Positions 27,816-31,203 of a stretch of DNA of 32,636 nt are shown piece by piece. The first letter of the stretch is position 1; each line of letters opens with the position of its first letter. A program made the position numbers and the translations under genes. The notes beneath the pieces were generated by a model. That model saw only the letters and a program-made list of their open reading frames with translations. It made no database searches and was not told the origin of the DNA. This stretch comes from Clostridium sp. DSM 8431 (GTDB lineage Bacteria > Bacillota > Clostridia > Clostridiales > Clostridiaceae). The stretch lies in NCBI RefSeq assembly GCF_900116755.1, contig NZ_FPBY01000017.1:1-32636 (forward strand), in the 5' to 3' direction.

Positions 27816-27906
27816 TGGCGGAGAGATAGGGATTCGAACCCTAGGTACCCGTGAAGGTACGCCGGTTTTCAAGACCGGTGCCTTAAACCAACTCGACCAT
27901 CTCTCC
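27816..27906 (-). tRNA. tRNA-Ser(TGA), copy 1
   Basis: A 91-nt class II tRNA with acceptor GGAGAGA, long variable arm, anticodon loop CTTGAAA (anticodon TGA, read UGA in RNA, for UCN codons) and encoded CCA. It is identical over its whole length to the copy at 28891-28981. Confidence 0.97.
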
Positions 27907-28034: not shown

Positions 28035-28850
28035 ATGATACTTTATATTTCAGACTTAGATGGTACGCTGCTTAATAGCTCTGCTAAGATAAGTTCAAAC
28101 AGTACAAAACTGTTAAATGAAGCCTTAAATAATAATATTAGTTTTACAATAGCAACAGCCCGTACTCCTGCTACTATTGTTCCCATATTAAAAAATATTA
28201 ATCTGAATATGCCTGTTATAGCCATGAATGGATGTAGCATATATGATTTAAAAAATAATAAATATATACATACAATTTCTATAAATAGTAATTTAATTTC
28301 AAAGCTACAGAAATTAATTAGTAGTGAAGGACTAAATCCTTTTATATATACATTAAAAGATAATCATTTATATGTATATCACAATAAGCTTACTGTACCT
28401 TGTCAGGTAAAATTTTATGATGAAAGAAAAAATAGTTCATTAAAAACATTTATAGAAGCACCTTTACCTTCTAATTCGCAAGTTTTATATTTTACTATAA
28501 TGGATTCAAAAGAAAAAATAGACAGCTTATTTGATAAACTTAAAGATATTCCTGAAATATCTGCTATTAAGTATTCTGATACTTATAATAAAGATGTATA
28601 TAATTTAGAAATATATAATTATAAAGCATCTAAATCAAATGCTATTAACTACTTAAAAAATACATATGATTTTGATACCCTGGTTACATTTGGAGACAAC
28701 CTTAATGATATTCCTATGTTTAATATCTCCGATCACTCTTGTGCTGTAGAAAATGCTGCTTGTGAGCTAAAAGAAATTGCTAGCGAAATAATAGGGCTTA
28801 ATACTGATGATTCAGTAGCCAAATATATACTTAATCATTCGAATAAATAA
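28035..28850 (+). CDS. Cof-type HAD-superfamily hydrolase (class IIB)
   Basis: A 271-residue phosphatase. HAD motif I is SDLDGTLLN (residues 6-14) with the nucleophile and acid Asp, motif II is in IATARTP (about 38-44), the lysine is near KASKSNAINYL, and motif IV is TFGDNLNDIPMF. The C2B cap lies between motifs II and III. Family members dephosphorylate sugar phosphates, pyridoxal phosphate or flavin precursors; the substrate cannot be deduced here. The start follows AGGAGGT. The gene lies between two identical tRNA-Ser(TGA) genes of opposite strand and shares a terminator with one of them. Confidence 0.92.
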   Translation: MILYISDLDGTLLNSSAKISSNSTKLLNEALNNNISFTIATARTPATIVPILKNINLNMPVIAMNGCSIYDLKNNKYIHTISINSNLISKLQKLISSEGLNPFIYTLKDNHLYVYHNKLTVPCQVKFYDERKNSSLKTFIEAPLPSNSQVLYFTIMDSKEKIDSLFDKLKDIPEISAIKYSDTYNKDVYNLEIYNYKASKSNAINYLKNTYDFDTLVTFGDNLNDIPMFNISDHSCAVENAACELKEIASEIIGLNTDDSVAKYILNHSNK

Positions 28851-28890: not shown

Positions 28891-28981
28891 TGGCGGAGAG
28901 ATAGGGATTCGAACCCTAGGTACCCGTGAAGGTACGCCGGTTTTCAAGACCGGTGCCTTAAACCAACTCGACCATCTCTCC
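28891..28981 (-). tRNA. tRNA-Ser(TGA), copy 2
   Basis: Identical over 91 nt to the copy at 27816-27906: same anticodon TGA, long variable arm and encoded CCA. It has its own promoter and terminator. Confidence 0.97.
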
Positions 28982-29093: not shown

Positions 29094-29477
29094 TTAAGCT
29101 ATTACCCCATGCTTTTCATATCTTGTTACTTCTTTTATACTATTATCCTCTTCAACAAATACTACTTTAGGTTTAAGCTCTTTTGCTTCCTCATTATCAA
29201 CCTCACAGTATGCCATAATAATTACTTTATCTCCAACTTCAGAGCATCTAGCTGCAGCTCCATTTAAGCATATCATTCCAGATCCTCTTTCACCTGCAAT
29301 TGTATAAGTTTCAAATCTTGCACCATTATTAACATCTACAATATGAACTTTCTCATACTCTAAAATTCCTGCTGCATCTAATAAATCTTCATCTATAGTA
29401 ATACTTCCAACATAATTTAGTTCAGCTTGTACAACAGTTGCTCTATGAATTTTTCCTTTTAACATTGTTAAGTTCAT
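29094..29477 (-). CDS. panD: aspartate 1-decarboxylase
   Basis: A 127-residue proenzyme making beta-alanine from aspartate for pantothenate synthesis. The self-cleavage site is the Gly-Ser in [10 protein letters not shown] (Ser about residue 25), which yields the pyruvoyl group. [16 protein letters not shown] at the start and [16 protein letters not shown] and CLNGAAARC in the middle match the family. Length is normal. It is the last gene of the operon, 16 bp after panC, with a GGAGG site. Confidence 0.97.
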
Positions 29478-29493: not shown

Positions 29494-30339
29494 TTACACT
29501 TCATATATAAAGTTATCTATTAATCTTGTTTTTCCAATGAATACTGCAATAGCTACTAATACTGTTCCACTTATAGTTTCAACATCTTTCATAGATATAC
29601 CATCAACTACTTGAACATATTCAACTCTAGCTAAAGGTTCAGTTTCTAAGTTATTTTTTATAATATCAATAACCTTGCTACTATTTCTTTCACCAGCATC
29701 TACAGCTTCTTTTCCAAGTTTTAATGATTTACTTAATATTAAAGCAGCCTTTCTTTCCTCTGGGCTTAAATAAGTATTTCTTGAGCTCTTAGCTAGTCCA
29801 TCTTCTTCTCTTACTATAGGACATCCAACAATCTCAATTCCAAAGCTTAAATCTCTAACCATCCTCTTTATAATTGCTAATTGTTGAGCATCTTTTTGCC
29901 CAAAATAAGCTCTATCAGGAGTTACTATATTAAATAACTTACTTACAACAGTACAAACTCCTCCAAAGTGAACTGGTCTACTCTTTCCACATAAGTTTTC
30001 AGTAAGAACACTCATATTAACTGATGTACAGAAATCATCAAAATACATTTCTTCCTTCTCTGGGTGGAATATTAAGCTAGCTCCTGCCTTTTCACATAAT
30101 TCACTATCTCTTTCTAAATCTCTTGGATAGCTTTCTAAGTCTTCTGTAGGCCCAAATTGAATTGGATTTACAAATACACTAACAACAACTCTATCATTTT
30201 CTTTAACAGCTCTATCAATTAAGCTCTTGTGGCCTTCATGTAAGTATCCCATTGTTGGTACTAATCCAACGGTTAATCCTTCTCTTCTCCATTCCTTAAC
30301 TAATCTTATTACTTCTTCTATACTTCCTGTAACTTTCAT
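29494..30339 (-). CDS. panC: pantothenate synthetase
   Basis: A 281-residue ligase joining pantoate and beta-alanine with ATP. The HIGH-like motif is PTMGYLHEGHKSLI (about residues 28-41), followed by SVFVNPIQFGPTEDLESYPRD, and the KMSKS-like region is SSRNTYLSPEER. All sections of the family are present at normal length. It starts 13 bp after the chimeric panG-panB frame and precedes panD. Its substrate pantoate would normally come from PanB and a ketopantoate reductase, both of which look broken here. Confidence 0.97.
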   Translation of the reverse strand: MKVTGSIEEVIRLVKEWRREGLTVGLVPTMGYLHEGHKSLIDRAVKENDRVVVSVFVNPIQFGPTEDLESYPRDLERDSELCEKAGASLIFHPEKEEMYFDDFCTSVNMSVLTENLCGKSRPVHFGGVCTVVSKLFNIVTPDRAYFGQKDAQQLAIIKRMVRDLSFGIEIVGCPIVREEDGLAKSSRNTYLSPEERKAALILSKSLKLGKEAVDAGERNSSKVIDIIKNNLETEPLARVEYVQVVDGISMKDVETISGTVLVAIAVFIGKTRLIDNFIYEV

Positions 30340-30352
30340 TGTTATCTCCCTT

Positions 30353-31054
30353 TTAATATAATTTTTCTAAAACATCATCATTTATTTTAAAACAGTGCTT
30401 TTCTTCTGGAAAAACACCATCTTTTACTTCTTCAATATATTTTGCAAAGGCTTCCTTCATATAATCACCTACATTTGCAAATCTTTTTACAAATTTAGGA
30501 GTGAAATCTGAAAACATGCCTAACATATCTTGATAAACTAAAACTTGTCCATCACATCCAGCACCTGCACCAATACCTATTGTTGGTATACTTATTTCCT
30601 TTGATATAAGTTCTGCAAGCTTAGATGGAACGCACTCTAGAACTACAGCAAAAGCTCCTGCCTCTTCAACAGCCTTTGCATCAGATATTAACTTTTTAGC
30701 AGCTTCTTCATCCTTATTAGAAAAAATTTTAGAAGATAACGAACCACTACAATGGCATATAATCTTGTTTTTAATAGATAGTTTGTCTATATTTTCCCAT
30801 ATAGAACCTATAACAGAATCTGGGGTAGTAATAAAAATAACATCACTCTCTTTTATTAAATCATTTATACTTACAAAACACTTAGAGTTTGTAAACTTTG
30901 CTGCTTCCTTTGTAGATTCTACATTCCTACTATAATAACCACTAATATTTATTTTGTTATTAGTTAAATACTTTCCTAGAGAAAAACCAACTTTCCCCGC
31001 TCCTATAAAACCTATATTTATGTTATCACCTCCAAAATTTAGAGTATGACACAT
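30353..31054 (-). CDS. chimeric remnant: N-terminal PanG-like (Rossmann/DUF2520) joined to C-terminal PanB
   Basis: An open frame of 233 residues made of two unrelated parts. Residues 13-113 are the NAD(P)-binding front of a Rossmann/DUF2520 protein of the PanG ketopantoate reductase type ([18 protein letters not shown], then FITTPDS and CHCSGSLSS). From about residue 114 to the end it is the last 40 percent of PanB, ketopantoate hydroxymethyltransferase: [11 protein letters not shown] with the catalytic Glu (E140), [20 protein letters not shown], and [13 protein letters not shown]. The PanG C-terminal domain and the first ~160 residues of PanB, with its metal-binding Asp/Glu residues, are missing. 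The order panG-panB-panC-panD is expected in clostridia, so one in-frame deletion of roughly 1 kb explains it; the joint is near 30705-30718. A strong GGAGGTGAT (31025-31033) precedes an ATA (31019-31021) where ATG is expected; the ATG at 31054 is in frame. Neither activity is likely to remain. Confidence 0.85.
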
Positions 31055-31107
31055 ACTAGTCCCTTTCTGTTTAAGATATAAACTATCTAAAAATTCAATT
31101 CATTATC

Positions 31108-31131
31108 TGGTATGGTTTCCTTCAAATACCA
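31108..31131. promoter_or_regulatory. dyad upstream of the pantothenate operon
   Basis: TGGTAT (31108-31113) and ATACCA (31126-31131) form an inverted repeat with a 12-bp centre, about 55 bp before the first possible start. It might be an operator; no known site is recognised. Confidence 0.3.
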
Positions 31132-31203
31132 CCCACAATAATAAATCTATCATAATTTTACTTATTATTCAATAAAATCAATTGTAGTAAAAATTCATAA
31201 AAT

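Follow-up and report, generated by a model that had tools for sequence, protein, structure and literature searches.

The window analysed in this study is a stretch of 32,636 nucleotides from Clostridium sp. DSM 8431 (positions 1 to 32,636 of contig NZ_FPBY01000017.1), and it carries a pantothenate (vitamin B5) operon in which panC and panD are preceded by a single open reading frame (ORF) that joins the front of panG to the back of panB. The main features of this operon, all of which lie on the minus strand, are as follows.

31053..31135, minus strand: pan motif RNA (RF01749), the operon leader; 40.8 bits against a gathering score of 36.2
30353..31054, minus strand: fused panG'-'panB ORF, 233 aa when counted from the upstream ATG, with no internal stop
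30716..31054, minus strand: PanG-derived part, residues 1-113 of 292; Rossmann NAD(P)-binding part, the DUF2520 part missing
30715..30716, minus strand: joint, between AAT and AAG; position uncertain by at most 2 bp, about 1,001 bp presumably missing
30356..30715, minus strand: PanB-derived part, residues 155-274 of 274; residues 1-154 missing
29494..30339, minus strand: panC, pantoate--beta-alanine ligase, 281 aa, full length by family match
29094..29477, minus strand: panD, aspartate 1-decarboxylase, 127 aa, full length by family match

In its leader (for the pan motif, see PMC2864571), its panC and panD, and its gene order, the operon resembles the panG-panB-panC-panD operon with a pan motif leader of the nearest relative, L032 (one of the loci fetched for comparison). 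Unlike the operon of L032, however, it has its panG and panB cut to one hybrid frame. The leader is the sole match to RF01749 in the assembly at E-values up to 1, and serS lies upstream of the hybrid frame. Both panC and panD match their families over nearly full length, in agreement with an earlier, sequence-only reading of this DNA, which had called them intact. Elsewhere in the window, two tRNA-Ser(UGA) genes with equal scores (27816-27906 and 28891-28981, minus strand) flank an opposite-strand frame (28035-28850), which was named a HAD-type hydrolase from its sequence.

Composition of the hybrid frame

The sequence-only reading had taken the frame at 30353-31054 for an in-frame chimera of PanG and PanB, a description that is confirmed by both its Pfam make-up and its alignment to sibling proteins. 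Rossmann-type NAD(P)-binding families were found within residues 12-112 of the hybrid, the best of them in this N-terminal half being F420_oxidored (residues 14-99, E 3.9e-11), and residues 112-218 correspond to positions 153-259 of the 259 positions of the Pantoate_transf (PanB) profile (E 1e-45). In place of a full-length PanB (ketopantoate hydroxymethyltransferase) domain, the hybrid has only the last 107 of the 259 profile positions, and it scores 140.7 bits with the NCBIfam panB model, below the cut-off of 207.55, compared with 365.4 bits for the sibling PanB protein P0002. Of the PanG architecture, in which a Rossmann part is followed by DUF2520, the Rossmann part is there and DUF2520, found at residues 144-268 of the sibling PanG protein P0005, is absent. 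We call the N-terminal half PanG, a putative ketopantoate reductase, because of where it stands in the operon, and no family scan names PanG; the scans describe the parent of this half as a Rossmann plus DUF2520 protein, and its relatives of solved structure comprise a protein without a name and one annotated as a putative NADP oxidoreductase.

The same reading had also noticed that the C-terminal domain of PanG and the N-terminal part of PanB are absent, and this holds in detail, as DUF2520 and PanB residues 1-154 are both missing. The PanB residues that are lost include D43, D82, K112 and E114 (P0002 numbering), which, going by PanB structures, would have metal-binding and catalytic roles. 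The hybrid has none of D43, D82 and E114, which we take to be the N-terminal metal-binding residues of PanB, residues 1-154 being absent. On the other hand, E181 of PanB is kept, as E140 of the hybrid.

Sibling proteins and the extent of the missing DNA

A search of 5.8 billion proteins was carried out with the hybrid, in which 7,999 candidates were scored and 7,997 matches kept. Among the best 120 of these 7,997 matches, only the window's own protein covers both halves, while the other 119 span 51-53% of the hybrid. The closest of the listed matches include a PanB of 274 aa (P0002), found on 15 contigs, and a PanG of 292 aa (P0005), found on 10 contigs; the hybrid differs from P0005 at one of 113 residues, and from P0002 at one of 120. 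Furthermore, the SerS protein P0242, which is found on 11 contigs, differs from the SerS of the window at one of 425 residues. For each of these three proteins the longest contig has 58,242 bases, from which we infer that they are encoded on one contig. We read these siblings as probably belonging to the same species or a very close one, in which panG and panB would both be whole. In addition, a SerS identical to that of the window over 425 residues was found on two contigs, and a PanC one residue off that of the window (P0122) on one contig of 11,751 bases. A single contig was seen to carry the fusion, a figure that may understate the number of assemblies that have it. A further PanC, P0121 (432 aa), which is encoded in a different genome on a contig of 178,429 bases, contains an in-frame internal tandem duplication, with 153 identical residues at a shift of 151.

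According to the sibling proteins, and assuming that panG and panB overlap by 1 base as in L032, the missing piece amounts to 1,001 bp, and in the nearest relative, L003, there are likewise 1,001 bp between the same two codons; as the siblings were compared as proteins only, the exact endpoints of the deletion are deduced from these alignments. Both values support the earlier proposal that a deletion of about 1 kb took the final part of panG along with the first part of panB. The mechanism proposed with it, a short microhomology at an NKDE/GKDE-like stretch, did not stand. The sibling PanG reads SNIEDHS at this place, and its SNIED together with a codon-by-codon check, in which at most 2 bp could be shared, ruled out such a stretch as the cause of the deletion. 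In L003, the bases shared at the joint amount to 2 bp, no codon choice for the sibling residues permits a longer overlap, and at least 2 bp are common to the two sides in 21% of 200,000 breakpoint pairs drawn at random in this relative. Within 60 bp of both endpoints in L003, no exact repeat is longer than 7 bp, and the one of this length lies 45 bp out of register. The frame across the joint is open and neither half has decayed. Because panG and panB are read in different frames, whether the frame stays open depends on the length of the loss modulo 3, a 1-in-3 chance.

Distribution of panG, panB and panC

The fusion protein was matched (E up to 1e-15) in 45 of the 68 genomes of the genus, including the one studied here. 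In 44 of the 67 other genomes, the two halves match at different positions of one and the same contig, within frames of 280-366 codons for PanG and 275-298 codons for PanB; three of the PanG matches (L007, L009 and L017) cross one TGA, which lies upstream of the likely start. The sequence-only reading had considered the case that close relatives might all carry the same short protein, and this is contradicted by these 44 genomes with the parts apart, as well as by the closest listed relatives, which are two full-length proteins. The panC gene is found in the same 45 genomes, and the same 23 match neither the fusion protein nor panC; therefore, among the 67 others, panB and panC are either both kept or both missing. 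Of the 68 genomes, only the one studied here has panC without a complete panB. Some of the 23 genomes lacking the locus are incomplete; when only genomes with a completeness of 90% or more and a contamination of 5% or less are counted, the locus is present in 39 of 55, by the fusion-protein and the panC searches alike. We have also fetched 110 loci from inside and outside the genus, a number that counts some genomes twice (e.g. as L003 and L032). Both parts are found 0.9 to 1.3 kb apart in 103 of them, the PanB part only in the remaining seven, and a fused panG-panB in none of the 110.

Possible sources of pantoate and pantothenate

No second panB was found in the assembly, where the PanB family and P0002 match the C-terminal part of the hybrid only. 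Nor is the end of PanG, with the DUF2520 part, found elsewhere in the assembly: a search with P0005 returned the hybrid and three weak matches to the N-terminal Rossmann part (E 0.001 to 0.2). With no complete panB in the assembly, the earlier suggestion that pantoate would have to come from outside the locus gains support. Of the genes that might stand in for the lost ones, i.e. another panB, panE or ilvC, only ilvC turned up; another panB was not found, and PanE was not among the ApbA matches that were followed. The IlvC frame is 340 residues long, lies on contig C105 and has a complete KARI_C match. B. subtilis is described as having IlvC as a third ketopantoate reductase, the other two being PanE and a protein that was renamed PanG (PMC11487621), and for this reason the loss of PanG alone could be covered by IlvC. 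The B. subtilis PanG is placed by that source in the PanE orthologous group, and therefore may not be of the family seen here. As no second panB was found, a block is predicted at the PanB step, IlvC notwithstanding.

PanE as a spare reductase was rejected, as the one of nine ApbA matches above the cut-off is a glycerol-3-phosphate dehydrogenase by reading of its sequence. An ECF S-component for pantothenate import was likewise discarded as a candidate; there are eight PF12822 matches in the assembly, and none of the three scanned against NCBIfam was so named. PanS has been implicated in pantoate transport (PMC10645422), and the best of four SBF matches in the assembly scores 208.8 bits against the PanS cut-off of 400, in a frame that may begin at a late start. 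This best candidate, which remains below the cut-off, is a bile acid:sodium symporter family protein (L136, 1186-2025, minus strand, contig C330). No pan gene was found beside it in the 2,470 bases around, and by reading, none of the window frames next to panD or serS is a PanS.

The start codon of panG and a predicted hairpin

Two further features lie just downstream of the leader.

31024..31051, minus strand: predicted hairpin of 10 pairs with one bulged A, which would cover the ribosome-binding site GGAGGUGAU
31019..31021, minus strand: ATA codon where the panG of some relatives has ATG; likely initiation codon, the alternative being the upstream ATG at 31054

Directly behind the strong ribosome-binding site, the window has an ATA codon and not ATG. 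Among 20 sequences of the genus that match the anchor pattern, some of them near-duplicates, the codon at this place is ATA in 11, ATT in three, ATG in five and another codon in one; 11 other sequences have no match to the pattern. Many of the 14 sequences with ATA or ATT have other standard codons in frame upstream, and for this reason an AUA or AUU start is only a lead. Counted from the GF anchor, these codons are an ATG at -42 for the window, ATG at -24 in L005, L009, L013 and L015, TTG at -24 in L011, L012 and L019, and GTG at -39 in L004, L006, L014 and L112. In five sequences, L010 and L016 from the genus and L055, L103 and L111 from outside, the frame downstream of the last stop offers no standard start codon but a GTG that lies within or at the ribosome-binding site.

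The hairpin was followed in an alignment of 16 sequences (15 of the genus and L055), from which the near-duplicates L006 and L019, the two sequences without the arm (L008 and L018) and the four in which the arm differs (L017, L046, L103 and L111) were left out. The upstream arm, complementary to the ribosome-binding site, pairs in 156 of 157 cells, compared with 41-65% for slid versions. Of the 10 pairs, six vary on one side only with the pairing kept, none varies on both sides, three are invariant, and one has a single unpaired cell. All 500 of 500 shuffles reach the observed values, and this control says nothing, because the ribosome-binding side hardly varies. Folding of single sequences gave values mildly better than those of shuffles (z -1.75 to -1.99, three sequences), and L046 and L111 fold hairpins of their own over the ribosome-binding site. 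These results are in keeping with the hairpin being conserved, and do not constitute proof by covariation. If true, it would be unusual for a vitamin gene under a pan leader to have a weak start codon that is conserved.

Discussion

As the sibling proteins are nearly identical to the two parts of the hybrid and are both full length, a recent deletion is the most likely origin of the fused frame. We put a probability of about 0.6 on a loss of about 1,001 bp that is private to one strain, inactivated both enzymes, and made the strain dependent on pantothenate or pantoate from outside; this value and the weights that we give below to an artefact and to a working hybrid are judgements and were not computed. 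In such a course of events, the DNA would have been lost from a whole panG-panB pair, rather than the hybrid being ancestral, and the joint would have been made by end-joining with at most 2 bp of shared sequence. The hybrid is probably dead, judging from its lack of the first 154 residues of PanB and of the DUF2520 part of PanG. Its frame would have been left open by the 1-in-3 chance, which would also let translation run up to panC. The PanB step would be blocked and the de novo formation of pantoate halted, while panC, panD and the pan leader remain.

It is possible, though on balance doubtful, that a chimeric read or a misassembly dropped about 1 kb from a complete panG-panB pair. The fusion occurs on one contig, as against 10 and 15 contigs for the whole siblings, the joint is located 1.9 kb from a contig end in a draft of 330 contigs, and all the 44 other panC-bearing genomes of the genus have their panG and panB matches at separate places. 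The lack of decay in either half fits such an artefact, and fits a very recent event equally well. Against it, no repeat was found that an overlap-based assembler could have collapsed, given the 2 bp shared at the joint and the out-of-register 7-bp repeat in L003. Furthermore, the missing pieces are not on another contig, although a leftover of 1 kb could have been filtered out.

A further alternative, which is compatible with the deletion that we favour, is that the strain is a specialised pantoate salvager, for which the loss of panB was neutral or even favoured. The Apt variant of vitamin B5 metabolism, in which PanD and PanC occur without PanB and are combined with a pantoate importer, is described in gut Firmicutes, 35 of them with a panD-panC-panS operon (PMC6593275). 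The gene content seen here agrees with this variant, since PanC and PanD are there at full length and a complete PanB is absent, so that the strain would require either pantoate or pantothenate; contig C330 also encodes a transporter belonging to the same broad family. However, that transporter scores below the PanS cut-off and has no pan gene beside it in the 2,470 bases around, and, unlike in the Apt variant as described in that source, where pantoate synthesis is absent and panS is often in the operon, panG and panB persist here as fused remnants and the operon shows no panS. Salvage is not the established state of the genus, because panC without panB occurs in none of the 67 other genomes, and we regard this alternative as unlikely.

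That the hybrid is a kept, expressed and working protein under the pan leader, i.e. a new NAD(P)-binding/half-barrel protein with a new role, is very improbable and without positive support: its frame has no stops and still has the leader and a ribosome-binding site ahead of it, but an open frame is expected by chance in one third of such deletions, the parts of PanB and PanG named above are missing, and no second two-half sequence was found among the best 120 of the 7,997 matches or in the 67 other genus genomes.

The deletion that we prefer has parallels among fusions born by deletion, in which the front of one gene becomes linked to the back of another through a deletion, the split genes being the ancestral state (Kaul et al., preprint PMC12803068); narX is described there as assembled from an operon. 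The frame studied here is of the same kind in its formation, being an open frame that unites parts of two genes separate in relatives, and would be a further, strain-private case. It differs from those cases of the preprint that were considered here, which are common to many genomes, in being found on a single contig, with its parents adjacent in one operon; the screen described there needs a fusion in more than one genome, whereas this one is seen on one contig, in one of 68 genomes.

Either way, the case rests on one assembly and is not a new enzyme. An artefact at the joint would mean that nutrient needs predicted from this assembly are wrong. A real joint, on the other hand, would be an ordinary gene loss and represent an early step in the loss of the vitamin B5 pathway, with the downstream genes and the leader still in place, and the strain would be an exception in a genus of which the other sampled genomes have either both panB and panC (44 of 67) or neither (23 of 67).
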